A stretch of 62,869 nt of DNA from Bacteroidales bacterium (GTDB lineage Bacteria > Bacteroidota > Bacteroidia > Bacteroidales > GCA-2748055), in assembly GCA_023138875.1 (NCBI GenBank), contig JAGLOO010000029.1:1-62869 (forward strand), in the 5' to 3' direction. The notes beneath the pieces were generated by a model that saw nothing but the letters and a program-made list of their open reading frames with translations, did no database searches and had not been told where the DNA came from. Position 1 is the stretch's first letter. Each line of letters starts with the position of its first letter. This document shows positions 14,618-20,255 of the stretch, piece after piece. The position numbers were made by a program, and so were the translations under genes.

Positions 14618-14713
14618 AATTGCAAAAATATATCCATCCCCTAAAGCTCTAACATTCCACTATTAGTAATAAGTTATTAATTCTCCCCAACCCCTTACAA
14701 TTTGTAATGATAC

Positions 14714-14744
14714 TTGGTTTTCTAGTAATAATTGCTTACGTTTG
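14714..14744 (+). promoter_or_regulatory. Promoter of the aromatic amino acid operon
   Basis: TTG (14714-14716), a 20-base spacer and TACGTTTG (14737-14744) match the Bacteroidota TTG-N19/20-TAnnTTTG promoter exactly. The start of transcription would be near 14751, twelve bases ahead of the leader-peptide ATG. Confidence 0.7.
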
Positions 14745-14762
14745 ACCGATAGTTTATAATAT

Positions 14763-14813
14763 ATGTCATACAGAAGCACCGTATATTATTTTTATTTTTT
14801 TTCCAGTCGATAG
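14763..14813 (+). CDS. Phe/Tyr-rich leader peptide (attenuator)
   Basis: A 16-codon ORF between the promoter and pheA encodes MSYRSTVYYFYFFSSR. Seven residues are aromatic, six of them clustered in YYFYFF (14784-14801). It ends at TAG (14811-14813) just before RNA arms that can form either an antiterminator or a terminator. This is the layout of ribosome-mediated attenuation: scarce charged tRNA-Tyr or tRNA-Phe stalls the ribosome on the cluster. It is too short for ordinary gene calling. No Shine-Dalgarno is visible, which is common in this phylum. The local T-richness could favour TAT/TTT codons by chance, but the ordered elements make that less likely. Confidence 0.75.
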   Translation: MSYRSTVYYFYFFSSR

Positions 14814-14848
14814 CTGGTCGGGCTTACTTTATGCATGTGGTACCCGGC
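14803..14848 (+). promoter_or_regulatory. Pause and antiterminator arms of the aromatic attenuator
   Basis: Arm 1 CCAG (14803-14806) pairs with CTGG (14814-14817) as a pause hairpin. Arm 2 GGTCGGG (14816-14822) can instead pair with CCCGGCT (14843-14849), about seven pairs with two G-U. That would block the terminator. A ribosome at the TAG (14811-14813) would cover arm 2 and allow termination; a ribosome held on the Tyr/Phe codons would cover arm 1 and allow the antiterminator. Confidence 0.65.
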
Positions 14849-14865
14849 TTTTAGTCGGGTTTTTT
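14842..14865 (+). terminator. Attenuator terminator before pheA
   Basis: ACCCGGC (14842-14848), loop TTTTA, GTCGGGT (14854-14860), followed by T to 14865: a seven-pair stem (one G-U) with a U-tract, 12 bases before the pheA start. Its 5' arm is shared with the antiterminator. Confidence 0.8.
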
Positions 14866-14876
14866 GTTTTATAACG

Positions 14877-15716
14877 ATGACAAAGACTATTGCAATACAG
14901 GGTGGATATGGTGCTTTTCATGAAATTGCAGCGCACCATTATTTTGAAAATGAGGAGATTAAGATCCTTCCCAGGAAGACTTTCAGAGATATGGTCTCCA
15001 CCCTCAAAAGCAGGCGATCTGATTTTGGGATCATGGCCATAGAAAATTCTCTTGCGGGAAGTATCCTCCCCAATTACAACCTGATCATTAACACCAGCAT
15101 GCATATTATCGGTGAAATCTATCTGAGGATCAAGCAAAACCTGGTAGCTATGCCCGGGGTAAAGATCTCAGATCTAAAAGAGGTATATTCCCATCCCATG
15201 GCCATTCTTCAATGCCAGGATTTCTTTGATAGATATCCGGATATCCGGCTTATTGAAAGTATCGATACTGCATTGAGCGCTGAAGAGGTAGCAGTCAATG
15301 GACTGCTGAATACAGGTGCGATCTCCAGCCGGCTTGCAGCTGAAAAGTACAGGCTGGATATTCTGGCTGAAAGCATTGAAACCAATAAAATGAACTATAC
15401 CCGGTTTCTTATACTGGCAGAAAATGGATTAACCATACCCCCACCTGAAGTAAATAAAGCATCCATCTCCTTTGCCGTTATACATAAGTTCGGGTCTCTG
15501 TCGAAGATACTCTCCATCCTTTCTTATTATGAGATCAATCTGGCCAAGATCCAGTCTATACCAATCCCGGGTAAAGACTGGGAATATATGTTTCATGTGG
15601 ATCTGGAAATCAAAGATTATGAGATGTATCAAAAGTCCCTGGATGCCATCAGGCCATTCACATCATTGCTGGGTATCCTCGGAGAATATAAAAAAGGAAA
15701 ATCGGTATTTGATTAA
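14877..15716 (+). CDS. pheA: Prephenate dehydratase
   Basis: Converts prephenate to phenylpyruvate for phenylalanine synthesis. The dehydratase domain starts IAIQGGYGAFHEIAAHHYF and continues with GIMAIENSLAGSILPNYNLI (near 57), the SHPMAILQC site (near 103) and the catalytic-loop region TNKMNYTRFLIL (near 172). A C-terminal ACT domain (FGSLSKILSILSYYEINLAKIQSIP) should sense phenylalanine. I chose the ATG at 14877 (279 residues). The upstream in-frame ATG at 14835 would place the attenuator terminator inside the gene, and translation from it adds no family sequence. It is the first gene of a six-gene operon. Confidence 0.93.
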   Translation: MTKTIAIQGGYGAFHEIAAHHYFENEEIKILPRKTFRDMVSTLKSRRSDFGIMAIENSLAGSILPNYNLIINTSMHIIGEIYLRIKQNLVAMPGVKISDLKEVYSHPMAILQCQDFFDRYPDIRLIESIDTALSAEEVAVNGLLNTGAISSRLAAEKYRLDILAESIETNKMNYTRFLILAENGLTIPPPEVNKASISFAVIHKFGSLSKILSILSYYEINLAKIQSIPIPGKDWEYMFHVDLEIKDYEMYQKSLDAIRPFTSLLGILGEYKKGKSVFD

Positions 15717-15725
15717 CTTTATATT

Positions 15726-16811
15726 ATGGTAGTTGATTTAGAACTGGAACCGCTGACGTTTGAAGGTAATGTATTTGCAAAGCCCATCTATATGGCTGGA
15801 CCCTGCAGTGCTGAGACTGAGGAGCAGGTAATGAATACCGCTATTCCCCTAGCCGCCATGGGAATAAAGATTTTCCGCGCAGGTATCTGGAAACCCCGGA
15901 CGAGGCCAAATGCTTTTGAAGGTGTGGGTTCGAAGGGACTGAAATGGCTTCAGCTGGTGAAAAAGGAAACCGGTATGCTGGTCACCACCGAGGTAGCCAA
16001 TGTGAAGCATGTATATGAAGCACTGAAGTATGGTATTGACATTATCTGGATCGGAGCCAGGACATCTGCCAACCCATTTGCAGTTCAGGATATAGCTGAC
16101 TGTCTCAGGGGGGTTAATATCCCTGTAATGATAAAAAATCCGGTCAATCCGGATGTGGACCTCTGGATCGGAGCCATAGAACGTATCAATAATGCCGGTA
16201 TTAAGCGCATGGCTGCGATTCATCGTGGATTTTCCAGTTACGACAAAACCCTGTACCGGAATATACCCCAGTGGCAGATTCCCATCGAGCTTCGGAGACG
16301 TATTCCCAATATACCGATCATCACGGATCCGAGCCACATTTGCGGCAACAGGGAATTCCTGTATGACATTTCCCAGAAAGCCATGGACCTGAATTTCGAT
16401 GGATTGATCATAGAAACCCATTGCAATCCCGACAAAGCACTGAGTGATGCCAATCAGCAGGTCACTCCCGAAGGACTTAATAATATCCTGGACAGGTTGG
16501 TGCTCAGGGATCCTGAAGTGAAAGAAGAACTGATGCTTACCCTTGCCGTGCTGAGGGATCAGATCGATAAACTGGATGACAGGATCATCAACATGCTTGA
16601 AGATCGGATGCAGGTATCAGAACAGATCGGAGAGCACAAAAAGGCCAACAACATAACCATCTTACAGACCAAAAGGTGGGATGACATGCTTAAGAACCGG
16701 CTCCAGCTGGGCATGAGGAAAGGACTCAGTGAAGAGTTTGTTATCAAACTGTTCAGGTCCATTCACCAGGAGTCTATCAACCACCAGACCCGTGTGATGA
16801 ACGAAGGATAA
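15726..16811 (+). CDS. Bifunctional DAHP synthase / chorismate mutase
   Basis: First committed enzyme of the shikimate pathway fused to the entry enzyme of the Phe/Tyr branch. The N-terminal KDO8P-synthase-like barrel shows MAGPCSAETEEQV near 20, FRAGIWKPRTRPNAFEG near 52 and HRGFSSYDK near 166, with TDPSHICGNR near 201. The C-terminal AroQ-type mutase (about 265-361) has LRDQIDKLDDRIINMLEDR and IGEHKKANN. The DAHP synthase-then-mutase order is the form common in Bacteroidota. The mutase domain may also transmit prephenate feedback, as known for related fusions. It starts 9 bases after pheA. Confidence 0.93.
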   Translation: MVVDLELEPLTFEGNVFAKPIYMAGPCSAETEEQVMNTAIPLAAMGIKIFRAGIWKPRTRPNAFEGVGSKGLKWLQLVKKETGMLVTTEVANVKHVYEALKYGIDIIWIGARTSANPFAVQDIADCLRGVNIPVMIKNPVNPDVDLWIGAIERINNAGIKRMAAIHRGFSSYDKTLYRNIPQWQIPIELRRRIPNIPIITDPSHICGNREFLYDISQKAMDLNFDGLIIETHCNPDKALSDANQQVTPEGLNNILDRLVLRDPEVKEELMLTLAVLRDQIDKLDDRIINMLEDRMQVSEQIGEHKKANNITILQTKRWDDMLKNRLQLGMRKGLSEEFVIKLFRSIHQESINHQTRVMNEG

Positions 16812-16816
16812 AAGTC

Positions 16817-17842
16817 ATGCACCTGATTCAATTAACCACCCCTTCCGGAGACACTGAGATTTCAGTGGGTGAACTCCTCTCGTCCGGGCTTCATGGATTG
16901 GAACCCGAACCGGTCCTGCTGGTGGATGAACAGGTCCAATCTTTTTATAGCGAGCTGTTCAGCCCATTCCGGTGTATAACCATTCCCTCCGGCGAACAGC
17001 ATAAGACCTTACAGACAGTCGAAGGTATCTGCCGGGAACTGGTTCAGATGGAGGTTGACAGGTCTTCCTTGCTGGTTGGGGTGGGAGGAGGATTGGCTAC
17101 AGATATAGCAGGCTTCGTAGCATCGACCTATCTGAGGGAAGTGCGGTTTGGGTTTATCTCTTCCACATTGCTGGGACAGGTAGATGCCAGCATTGGGGGT
17201 AAGAATGGGGTGAATCTGGATGGCTATAAGAACATGATCGGGACCATTCGTCAGCCTTCATTTGTGTGGTGTGATCTTTCACTCTTGAATACATTGCCTC
17301 ATAAAGAGTACGTCGCAGGAATTGCAGAGGTCATTAAATACGGAGTTATCCGGGACCGGGACTTTCTACATTACCTGAAAGATCATATGTCTGCACTGCT
17401 TACACTCGACGGTGATGTACTTGAAAAGGTAGTTACTACCTCCGTATCGGTCAAGGTCAATATTGTCCAACAGGATGAGAAGGAATCTGACCTTAGAAAA
17501 CTTTTAAACTTTGGACATACCATCGGTCATGCCATAGAACGTGATAAGAAGGTGCTGCATGGCGAAGCTGTGGCTACAGGAATGGTGCTGGCAGCCAGGC
17601 TTTCCAATACCCTTGGCCTGTTGTCAGCTTCCGGGGTTGAAATGATCGAAGAACTGGTCGGTTTGGCCGGATTGCCTGTCCGGATGGATATGGATCCTGA
17701 TGTATTATACCAGAACATCAGGAAGGACAAGAAAAAAAGTGGTGACCTGGTTCATTTCGTACTCCTTGAAGAGCTGGGCCACGCTATGATCAGGCCAATC
17801 CCGCTAACGGAATTAAATCACATGCTTCATGATCTGTGTTAG
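16817..17842 (+). CDS. aroB: 3-dehydroquinate synthase
   Basis: Second step of the shikimate pathway, an NAD- and metal-dependent cyclase. Motifs include SGEQHKTLQT (near 60), the NAD-binding VGGGLATDIAGFVASTYLR (near 90), TLLGQVDASIGGKNGVN (near 117), the metal-ligand segment AEVIKYG (near 170), LNFGHTIGHAIE (near 230) and HGEAVATGM (near 248). At 341 residues it is within the family range. The start lies 5 bases after the preceding stop and its 3' end overlaps aroD by 14 bases, so these genes are cotranscribed. Confidence 0.94.
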   Translation: MHLIQLTTPSGDTEISVGELLSSGLHGLEPEPVLLVDEQVQSFYSELFSPFRCITIPSGEQHKTLQTVEGICRELVQMEVDRSSLLVGVGGGLATDIAGFVASTYLREVRFGFISSTLLGQVDASIGGKNGVNLDGYKNMIGTIRQPSFVWCDLSLLNTLPHKEYVAGIAEVIKYGVIRDRDFLHYLKDHMSALLTLDGDVLEKVVTTSVSVKVNIVQQDEKESDLRKLLNFGHTIGHAIERDKKVLHGEAVATGMVLAARLSNTLGLLSASGVEMIEELVGLAGLPVRMDMDPDVLYQNIRKDKKKSGDLVHFVLLEELGHAMIRPIPLTELNHMLHDLC

Positions 17843-18464
17843 TATAGCTCACATATCGCAAATCAATGAAGCTCTTCAACAAGGAGCCGAATTGATTGAG
17901 GTGAGGCTGGATCTTATCAGGGAAGATCCAGGGGAGATCTTTTCCGGCATTCCCGGACATATGAAGACCATTGCCACCTGCAGGTCCGATGGGTACAATG
18001 ACAATGAAAGAAAGGTACTGCTGAAAGCATGCATGGATCTGGGTGCATCCTTTATAGACATTGAGTTAGAGTCGTCACCAGGATATGCATCGGAACTAAT
18101 ATACCATGCACAGGAGTGTGCAACTGATGTGATTGTATCCTATCATAATTTTGGCATGACCCCGGACCGGGATGAGTTGAGGGGCATTATGGACAAGTGT
18201 TATAAATTGGGAGGCAATATTGCTAAAATTGCTACCACGGTTAACTCAAGAGAGGATTTGAATAGCCTGTTATCCATGTATGAATTGCCCGGTAGAAAAG
18301 TGGTGATCGGCATGGGAGGTCCGGGTCGTATTACAAGGGTTATGGCTCCATATCTTGGAGCAGAATTTACTTTTGCGTCCATTGGAGGAGGTGGAGAAAC
18401 TGCACCAGGTCAGATGACTGTGAGCCAGTTGAATGATATATACAAAGTGATTGATAAAACATGA
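17829..18464 (+). CDS. aroD: Type I 3-dehydroquinate dehydratase
   Basis: Third step of the shikimate pathway via a Schiff-base lysine. The residues expected of the type I enzyme are present: VRLDLI (near 24), ATCRSDG (near 49), VSYHNF with the active-site His (near 98), NIAKIATTV carrying the Schiff-base Lys (near 134), and the C-terminal GGETAPGQMTV loop. The protein is 211 residues, shorter than E. coli AroD (~252) but typical for the phylum. It overlaps aroB by 14 bases and aroC by 4 (ATGA), consistent with coupled translation. Confidence 0.93.
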   Translation: MICVSIAHISQINEALQQGAELIEVRLDLIREDPGEIFSGIPGHMKTIATCRSDGYNDNERKVLLKACMDLGASFIDIELESSPGYASELIYHAQECATDVIVSYHNFGMTPDRDELRGIMDKCYKLGGNIAKIATTVNSREDLNSLLSMYELPGRKVVIGMGGPGRITRVMAPYLGAEFTFASIGGGGETAPGQMTVSQLNDIYKVIDKT

Positions 18465-19471
18465 ACACATTCGGTAAGTTTTTCAGAATCAGTATATTTG
18501 GGGAATCTCATGGGGAGTCTGTGGGTATTGTCATAGATGGATGTCCTGCTGGCATTCCCCTGAAGTACTCCGATTTTAACGAGGACTTTTCCAGGAGGAA
18601 AAGCGGGGCTAAGGGAACCACACCCCGGCGGGAAGCAGACATTCCACGGATCATGAGCGGGGTGTTCAACGAGCGTACCACCGGTGCACCCATCATGATC
18701 ATGTTTGAAAATACGAATATCCGTTCCGGGGATTACAGCATATTGAAGGATATTCCCAGGCCGGGACATGCCGATTTAACTGCCCATCAGAAATTTGGAG
18801 GATATCAGGATTATCGCGGGGGAGGCCATTTTTCCGGGCGACTCACGCTGGGTCTTGTAGCTGCCGGGATCATTGCAAAAAAAATCATCGATCCCATGCA
18901 GGTGTCAGGTACCATTCTGGAAATAGGAGGCAGCAGGGATATTGAGGCCGCCATTGACACGGCCGTGAAGCAGCAGGACTCCATCGGGGGGATTGTCGAA
19001 TGCACAATCAAAGAGGTGCCCGTTGCACTTGGAGAACCTTTCTTTGACTCGCTGGAAGCAGTCCTGAGTCACATGGTTTTTTCCATTCCGGCCATCAAAG
19101 GCATAGAATTCGGATCAGGTTTTCATGCTGCAAAAATGAGAGGAAGCCAGCACAATGATAATATCGTGACTACCGATGGTGCCACTGAAACCAACCACGC
19201 TGGAGGGATCAACGGAGGGATCTCCAATGGAAATGAAATTGTTTTCAGAGTGGCTGTTAAACCCACATCGAGCACCCAGCAGACACAGCGTACAATGAAT
19301 CTGAAGTCCGGTGAGATGGAGAACCTTGTTATAGAGGGCAGGCATGATACCTGTATTGCCCTGCGTATGCCGGTGGTGGTAGAGGCGGCAGCTGCCATTG
19401 TTATGGCAGATTTCATGCTGCAATCTCAGCAGGTAAATAGAGTAAATGAACCAAAAACCAGAATAGAGTAA
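18461..19471 (+). CDS. aroC: Chorismate synthase
   Basis: Makes chorismate from EPSP using reduced FMN. Signature stretches are visible: FRISIFGESHGESVGIVIDG at residues 6-25, RRKSGAKGTTPRREAD near 46, DYRGGGHFSGRLT near 124, NHAGGINGGISNGNE near 244 and the C-terminal RHDTCIALRMPVVVEAAAAIVMAD. At 336 residues it is slightly shorter than the E. coli enzyme. The upstream genes aroA (EPSP synthase), aroE and aroK are not in this operon and must lie elsewhere. Confidence 0.96.
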   Translation: MNTFGKFFRISIFGESHGESVGIVIDGCPAGIPLKYSDFNEDFSRRKSGAKGTTPRREADIPRIMSGVFNERTTGAPIMIMFENTNIRSGDYSILKDIPRPGHADLTAHQKFGGYQDYRGGGHFSGRLTLGLVAAGIIAKKIIDPMQVSGTILEIGGSRDIEAAIDTAVKQQDSIGGIVECTIKEVPVALGEPFFDSLEAVLSHMVFSIPAIKGIEFGSGFHAAKMRGSQHNDNIVTTDGATETNHAGGINGGISNGNEIVFRVAVKPTSSTQQTQRTMNLKSGEMENLVIEGRHDTCIALRMPVVVEAAAAIVMADFMLQSQQVNRVNEPKTRIE

Positions 19472-19472
19472 C

Positions 19473-20255
19473 ATGCGCATAGCAATCATAGGAGCCGGAA
19501 ATATGGGCTCATGGCTGGTAGAATCTCTCTGCCTGGATTATGAAGTAGGTATTTACGATATGGATCGCAGTAAGCTGAAGTATTTTTTCAACTCAAGAAA
19601 ATTCCTGTACTACGAGGAGATCCTGGATTTTTCACCGGATCTCTTGATCAATGCGGTCAGTCTGGATAAGACCATCGTACTTTTCAATGAAATCATCTCT
19701 TACCTTCCTGAAAACTGTATCATAGCAGATATCACTTCGGTTAAAAGCGGGCTCGCGGAGTATTATAAGAAGCTTGGAAGGCGTTTTGTATCCACACACC
19801 CGATGTTCGGGCCCACTTTTGGCAATGTGAAGGATCTGAGCAATGAGAATGCAATCATTATCTCCGAATCAGATGAGGAAGGCAAAACCTTTTTCAGGGA
19901 TTTTTATGAGGGATTGAAAATAAAATTACATGAGTATTCTTTCCAGAAACACGATGAGACCATTGCATATTCACTCTCCATTCCATTTTCCTCTACCATG
20001 GTATTTGCAGCCTGCATGAAGGAGCAGGAGGCTCCTGGCACCACCTTCAAAAAGCATTTTAGTATTGCAGAGGGGCTCCTGTCGGAGGACGATTATCTGC
20101 TGTCAGAGATTCTGTTAAGTCCTTACAGCCTCGATCAGGTAGAAAGGATCAGCGACCAGATGCAGGCCCTGATCGCGATGATCAAAGCACGTGATAAAGA
20201 ACAGCTAAAGGAATTCTTTCAAATGTTGAGAACCAACATTGGGCTGGAATCTTAA
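19473..20255 (+). CDS. tyrA: Prephenate dehydrogenase
   Basis: Oxidative decarboxylation of prephenate to 4-hydroxyphenylpyruvate for tyrosine. A dinucleotide-binding fold (IAIIGAGNMGSWLVESL) starts the protein. Family motifs follow: ADITSVKSGL near 89, STHPMFGPTFG near 108 and the substrate-pocket EYSFQKHDETIAYSLSIPF near 150. There is no ACT or chorismate mutase domain, so it is a stand-alone dehydrogenase of 260 residues. It ends the operon and its last 51 bases overlap the end of tilS on the other strand, so no terminator lies between the two genes. Confidence 0.9.
   Translation: MRIAIIGAGNMGSWLVESLCLDYEVGIYDMDRSKLKYFFNSRKFLYYEEILDFSPDLLINAVSLDKTIVLFNEIISYLPENCIIADITSVKSGLAEYYKKLGRRFVSTHPMFGPTFGNVKDLSNENAIIISESDEEGKTFFRDFYEGLKIKLHEYSFQKHDETIAYSLSIPFSSTMVFAACMKEQEAPGTTFKKHFSIAEGLLSEDDYLLSEILLSPYSLDQVERISDQMQALIAMIKARDKEQLKEFFQMLRTNIGLES

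Follow-up and report, generated by a model that had tools for sequence, protein, structure and literature searches.

A probable Phe/Tyr leader-peptide attenuator ahead of an aromatic amino acid operon in a Bacteroidales bacterium, with related leaders across the Bacteroidia

Introduction

How does a Bacteroidales bacterium regulate transcription of its operon for aromatic amino acids? The window analysed here is the whole 62,869-nt stretch of contig JAGLOO010000029.1 (assembly GCA_023138875.1), and an initial annotation made from its letters had proposed that the region between nth and pheA is a ribosome-mediated attenuator responding to the supply of both phenylalanine and tyrosine. The tests that could be computed were mostly favourable to this interpretation. 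We consider it very likely that transcription attenuation by a translating ribosome senses Phe and Tyr together at this locus, the regulation itself being argued from sequence.

Results

The locus, its promoter and its operon

The genes from pheA to tyrA (Table 1) are separated by no more than 9 nt or overlap, and because of this spacing pheA-DAHPS/CM-aroB-aroD-aroC-tyrA is most likely a single operon. The pheA match is unique in the genome at E values up to 0.001. The closest upstream gene, nth, is divergent from pheA, and the attenuator region lies on the + strand between the two; the terminator that precedes pheA is therefore not the end of nth. The promoter consists of TTG at 14714-14716, a 20-nt spacer and TACGTTTG at 14737-14744. 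Scored against TTG-N20-TACGTTTG, which we take to be the Bacteroidota promoter consensus, 27 of 28 family rows (two genomes being present twice) had at least 8 of the 9 consensus positions together with the 20-nt spacer, and 14.6% of shuffles also gave 8 of 9 consensus positions.

Table 1. Coordinates in the window of the promoter, the putative attenuator and the genes that follow it.
Feature	Position	Strand	Basis
Promoter, Bacteroidota-type TTG-N20-TACGTTTG (-33/-7)	14714..14744	+	Sequence
Leader peptide ORF MSYRSTVYYFYFFSSR, 16 codons	14763..14813	+	Predicted; leader in 26/26 usable family genomes
Control codons Tyr-Tyr-Phe-Tyr-Phe-Phe (YYFYFF)	14784..14801	+	Codon conservation in genus
1:2 (pause) hairpin CCAGU/GCUGG around leader stop codon	14803..14817	+	Covariation, 16 genus sequences
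Antiterminator arm 2 (GGUCGGG, plus UACU)	14816..14828	+	Fold; swap test
Arm 3 (GGUA + CCCGGCU), common to antiterminator and terminator	14838..14849	+	Folds, pairing
Intrinsic terminator ACCCGGCT-TTT-AGTCGGGT into TTTTTT	14842..14865	+	Pairing, masked fold
pheA, prephenate dehydratase, first regulated gene	14877..15716	+	Pfam PDT, 178.7 bits
DAHP synthase fused to chorismate mutase	15726..16811	+	Pfam DAHP_synth_1, CM_2
aroB, 3-dehydroquinate synthase	16817..17842	+	Pfam DHQ_synthase, DHQS_C
aroD, type I 3-dehydroquinase	17829..18464	+	Pfam DHquinase_I
aroC, chorismate synthase	18461..19471	+	Pfam Chorismate_synt
tyrA, prephenate dehydrogenase, last gene of the operon	19473..20255	+	Pfam PDH_N, 39.8 bits (cut-off 26.5)

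Rfam searches of the region gave no match at the gathering threshold, and the cut-off of the Phe leader family, which we take to be that of the E. coli pheA and pheST leaders, was not reached. When the E value was relaxed to 10, four weak and unrelated matches appeared within 14640-14900, none of them a riboswitch or a T-box. A T-box or amino acid riboswitch was rejected on these grounds, the Rfam matches in the window being to group II introns and tRNA only. The group II intron matches lie at the window start, at 107-324 and 1959-2033 (D1-D4-6, 113.8 bits; Intron_gpII, 40.5 bits).

A leader ORF is followed by predicted competing hairpins

The short predicted leader ORF runs from an ATG at 14763-14765 to a TAG at 14811-14813, and clusters codons for the end products of the operon: seven codons of MSYRSTVYYFYFFSSR are aromatic, six of them adjacent. 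Around its stop codon, CCAG (14803-14806) pairs with CTGG (14814-14817). Further on, GGTCGGG (14816-14822) is complementary to CCCGGCT (14843-14849), and 14842-14849 also pairs with 14853-14860 in a stem that leads into a T run at 14860-14865, 11 nt before pheA. An intrinsic terminator is thus predicted between the leader and the first gene, with a competing antiterminator that shares its 5' arm. The promoter, the ORF with its aromatic codons, the stop-codon hairpin, the arms and the terminator were all present where the initial annotation had placed them.

The minimum free energy fold of 14740-14880 has -32.1 kcal/mol (z -2.07). The outcome of folding changed with the position to which the RNA was masked. 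With masking to 14811 and arm 4 absent, arms 2 and 3 paired at -11.8 kcal/mol (fold of 14812-14850), and with masking to 14823 the terminator formed at -12.1. In the full-length RNA with a ribosome at the last Phe codon, the terminator was favoured at equilibrium (-14.7), so that antitermination must be kinetic. Masking to 14796, which mimics a ribosome on the first Tyr codon, gave a structure (-13.4) in which the 1:2 hairpin coexists with a shortened antiterminator; the 1:2 hairpin is therefore a weak competitor here.

These folds are consistent with the following course of events. Transcription would start just past the -7 element, which would place the leader ATG near the 5' end. With charged tRNA-Phe or tRNA-Tyr scarce, a ribosome would stall on YYFYFF, its leading edge reaching about 14796-14811, and leave arm 2 (from about 14815) free to pair with arm 3 as the latter emerges; the terminator would then come too late and RNA polymerase would read into the operon. 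With both amino acids plentiful, the ribosome would reach the stop codon, cover the RNA to about 14823 and hide arm 2, arm 3 would pair with arm 4, and transcription would end at the T run with the operon off. The 1:2 hairpin would take just the first bases of arm 2, and in the genus of the window it probably aids pausing or a default-off state.

Support for the individual stems among close relatives was uneven. Across 16 genus sequences, 85.1% of the cells of the 1:2 hairpin were paired, a value reached by 63/500 shuffles. Changes on both sides occurred at 3 of its 6 pairs (109/500 shuffles) and in 5 cells (6/500 shuffles), and its covariation score was equalled by 5/500 shuffles. The pause hairpin described for the window is thus present there, but this CCAG/CTGG type was identified and tested solely within the genus. 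In 22 sequences the terminator was paired in 97.1% of cells (2/500 shuffles) with a covariation score reached by 1/500, its count of pairs changed on both sides being unremarkable (305/500 shuffles reach that number). The antiterminator arms were paired in 89.0% of cells of the same number of sequences, and their co-variation within the family was mostly no better than that of shuffles because the core arms scarcely vary.

The leader and terminator are widespread in the class

pheA was searched in 198 phylum, 28 family and 158 order genomes, with matches at E values up to 1e-20 in 172, 28 and 71, respectively. We retrieved 48 pheA loci and read 46, two (L040, L048) being cut inside pheA. Upstream stretches came from 67 of 68 matched genomes of the rest of the order and 40 of 44 of the other orders of the class; for other classes, 20 of 127 matched genomes were picked by hand to include the five best matches and are not a fair sample. 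The survey omitted G088, G012, G095, G190 and G265, and four stretches (L066, L076, L089, L139) were unusable, being short or lacking the pheA start.

A leader followed by a terminator stood before pheA in 26/26 usable family genomes, in 52/65 genomes of the rest of the order and in 31/40 of the other class orders, so that the Y/F leader proposed from the window is conserved in its relatives. The terminator test required a T-rich tail, and 12 further genomes passed when the tail was relaxed: six each among the order genomes, where a seventh leader (L086) has a doubtful terminator, and among those of the other class orders. The remaining six order genomes had no leader of this kind within 600 nt of pheA, and a search over 7-8 kb upstream revealed none that is followed by a terminator; these genomes look like losses, and one of them measures 1.2 Mb. 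The sampled genomes of other classes gave 3/20 with leader and terminator, one with a relaxed terminator and 16 without. Relatives that lack the leader, which would speak against the proposal, do exist in these 6/65 and 16/20 genomes, but the leader is present in most of the relatives sampled from the class.

In three genomes of the other class orders no leader adjoined pheA, which directly followed another gene, an ORF of about 410 codons that presumably resembles aroA. Each of the three carries a Y/F leader and a terminator 3.6-3.7 kb upstream, before a DAHP synthase gene (47-48% identity to that of the window) followed by aroB, in a gene run that ends in pheA. Loss of the leader was therefore rejected in 3/3 of these genomes. 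Since the leader precedes DAHP synthase where pheA is internal, it marks the head of the operon and not pheA as such.

These arrangements bear on a translational reading, in which the stalled ribosome would refold the leader RNA and expose the initiation region of pheA, 11 nt past the T run. Two features would suit it, the end of the hairpin only 16 nt before the pheA ATG and the retention of leader and hairpin in L086 without a T run. Yet the test that demands a T-rich tail was passed at the rates given above, in L067-L069 about 80-115 nt intervene between the terminator and pheA, and in the three genomes just described the unit precedes a different gene. We regard translational control as very improbable on this evidence, and transcription attenuation remains the preferred reading.

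Several other configurations were seen in the survey. The upstream sequence of L086 is identical to that of L037 and holds a Y/F leader and a strong GC hairpin with no T run; the unit is perhaps a translational version, or degenerate. One of the leaderless order genomes (L221) has two Y/F-rich ORFs 3-4 kb upstream, without a terminator. The positives from other classes (L184-L187 and L211-L214, from G014, G156, G066 and G133) have pheA products 42-48% identical to that of the window and, among the 20 sampled, closest to it, and transfer of the operon together with its attenuator, or misplacement of these four genomes, is possible.

Y/F leader-terminator pairs occurred in series before pheA in 15 of 138 regions, some genomes being counted twice (L019/L070, L025/L075, L026/L074, L021, L045, L077, L078, L093, L125, L132, L135, L144). 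The second leader ATG of L019 comes immediately after the first T run, and to judge from this arrangement its two units probably share one transcript.

A family-level covariance model (R1), built from the same relatives and left out of the wider survey, found a single copy beside pheA in 24/28 family genomes and no second copy at E values up to 0.01 among 150 candidates scored per genome. Its four misses comprise two genomes in which a contig end cuts pheA and two with diverged leaders.

Codon changes keep Phe and Tyr

Phe and Tyr codons are rich in T, and we asked how often such a cluster arises by chance. At least six aromatic codons in eight were obtained in 18/3000 dinucleotide shuffles of the 220 nt upstream of the window pheA. 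The cluster taken alone is thus only moderately unlikely; a single stretch is unconvincing, and conservation decides. The same density was found in 25/28 family, 76/91 order and 26/40 class stretches upstream of pheA (the family and order sets contain some genomes twice), against 0.5-0.9% of shuffles of these stretches. At 227 starts of other long ORFs, pheA excluded, it occurred twice, and at least five in eight occurred four times. When all amino acid pairs were ranked before pheA, F+Y came first (127/159 regions) and F+S second (36), with some genomes present twice.

The codon comparison covered 15 genus sequences out of 16 usable ones, L063 being excluded for its longer cluster. Departures of the six control codons from the consensus numbered 0 at codon position 1, 5 at position 2 and 13 at position 3; all changes at position 2 exchanged Y and F and all those at position 3 were T to C. 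Every change in the cluster of these sequences therefore keeps Phe or Tyr, which disposes of the concern that the clustered TAT/TTT codons are unconserved low-complexity sequence; T-rich drift would not be expected to produce such a pattern. The residues that flank the aromatic block vary, and the block itself is kept. Across 153 units, 148 clusters contain both Phe and Tyr, five Phe only and none Tyr only. Trp or Asn codons stand in or beside the cluster in some class leaders (L154, L157, L164, L173), Trp making up 13 of the cluster codons across 156 rows.

Arms 2 and 3 co-vary at class scale and arm 2 keeps its distance from the cluster

For a swap test we took 89 units that shared less than 75% similarity and between them had 88 different terminator arms, and paired each arm 2 with its own and with every other arm 3. 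Arm 2 with its own arm 3 gave a mean of -15.1 kcal/mol, as against -9.8 when swapped, and 0/10,000 permutations were as good. The own arm 3 had a median rank in the best 4.5% and was strictly the best partner in just 16/89 units, because these G/C-rich arms resemble one another. Arm 2 outperformed 95% or more of the shuffled versions of its region in 137/156 units. The duplex cut of -7 kcal/mol or lower discriminates little, since 156/156 units pass it and shuffled regions average -6.7; the evidence for arm 2 is the shuffle comparison together with the swap test. Arms 2 and 3 co-vary at the scale of the class. The co-variation anticipated for the stem arms was thus found for arms 2:3 over the 89 class units, but within the family the antiterminator shows it weakly and the other hairpins to a modest degree.

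Arm 2 of these 89 units began a median of 13 nt past the last aromatic codon (middle half 10-15), as against 21 nt (middle half 9-34) with shuffled arm-2 regions. The stop codon drifts relative to arm 2 (median -14, middle half -23 to -1). Arm 2 begins within the leader ORF in 59 units, directly at the stop or shortly past it in 28 and farther on in two. The E. coli ribosome covers about 12 nt past the first base of the A-site codon. With this footprint, a ribosome at the last aromatic codon would just leave arm 2 free at the spacing of about 13 nt, as attenuation requires, and one that advances would cover it. A ribosome at the stop codon would cover arm 2 in the window, as first proposed, but this does not carry over to the 59 diverged units, where a translating ribosome, not one parked at the stop, would cover it.

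The same spacing and pairing bear on the idea of a small RNA or peptide gene with its own terminator and function, with pheA promoted separately. Leader and terminator would indeed yield a stand-alone transcript of about 110 nt. However, the T run ends just 11 nt before pheA, so that the elements of a separate promoter would fall inside the leader; the aromatic block and its distance to arm 2 are kept while the flanking residues vary; and the complementarity of arms 2 and 3 would be left unexplained. We give this reading still less credence than translational control. That T-rich low-complexity sequence lies by chance next to an ordinary terminator, as the T-rich codons and the 18/3000 shuffles might suggest, is barely conceivable given the class-wide conservation, the restriction of codon changes to T-to-C and Y/F exchanges, and the permutation test on the arms.

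Probable his and trp leaders in the same genome

Two further leaders were found in the genome of the window. One, MRFYSRHRVHHHHHHLSG, precedes hisG (L204:1208-1264) and has six His codons in a row and a terminator; the other, MTEIRTNWWWHHYSRQTGA, precedes a chorismate-binding gene taken for trpE (L205, reverse complement 755-814) and has three Trp codons in a row and a terminator. These units are probable his and trp attenuators. A crude leader scan found none at two HMGL-like loci, a homoserine dehydrogenase locus and the other two chorismate-binding loci, all of these loci being shorter than 4 kb, so that operon heads may be missed. This organism probably makes general use of attenuation.

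Discussion

The distribution of the units suggests a wider picture, towards which we lean with some reserve. The attenuator would be ancestral to the class Bacteroidia and usually reduced: no pause hairpin would be needed, arm 2 would often lie in the ORF, where a translating ribosome would suffice to hide it, and the roughly 13 nt between cluster and arm 2, equal to one ribosome front, would be the most tightly held distance. It would stay with the head of the operon through rearrangement and would sometimes occur twice in series. If this is true, coupling of the ribosome to RNA polymerase would be close on these leaders throughout the class. The element is a proposed regulator for an operon of aromatic amino acid synthesis in a large bacterial class. 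Because switching of this sort depends on a ribosome that follows RNA polymerase closely, it also offers a simple reporter of transcription-translation coupling in Bacteroidota. In the window the element matched no Rfam family, and a new family could be seeded with our alignments.

The initial annotation took a leader of this kind to be not well described in Bacteroidota, a view that has to be given up. The literature yielded one direct predecessor, a study of Flavobacterium psychrophilum whose text, as far as available to us, reports strong clues that leader peptides attenuate amino acid operons, and describes structured 5' elements before pheA and hisG that are conserved in Flavobacteriaceae and have no Rfam hits (PMC9723704). 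These elements are like that of the window in phylum, in the position before pheA, and in the absence of an Rfam match, leader-peptide attenuation having been proposed there for amino acid operons, and the window element is probably of the same kind as the Flavobacteriaceae pheA leader. The portion of that text available gives neither the peptide, the control codons and the arms of the pheA element nor which operons have leaders, whereas the present analysis follows the element through the class and examines its spacing and co-variation. In the accessible parts of two other papers, small ORFs reminiscent of leader peptides are reported from Bacteroides thetaiotaomicron (PMC7366714) and leader genes are surveyed by distance (PMC4833913). 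A description earlier than ours, beyond the F. psychrophilum study, may exist. One candidate is the work of Lopatovskaya et al. of 2010 in Mol Biol, which is cited in PMC4833913 and may cover Bacteroidetes.

The E. coli pheA and pheST leaders are established cases of ribosome-mediated attenuation, in which a short Phe-rich ORF decides between antiterminator and terminator. The element in the window resembles that of E. coli pheA in the enzyme step it precedes (prephenate dehydratase), in its short leader ORF and in its competing hairpins. It differs from the pheA and pheST leaders in its mixed Phe/Tyr codons, in an operon that adds DAHP synthase, aroB, aroD, aroC and tyrA, and in its Bacteroidota-type promoter. 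Multivalent leaders are known from enterobacteria, at ilvGMEDA (Ile/Val/Leu) and thrABC (Thr/Ile); as there, one leader would sense more than one end product of its operon, the pair here being Phe and Tyr. The type of attenuation is thus a known one, and what is particular here is its wide distribution in the class, the double Phe/Tyr signal and the location of arm 2 mostly inside the leader ORF in the diverged units.
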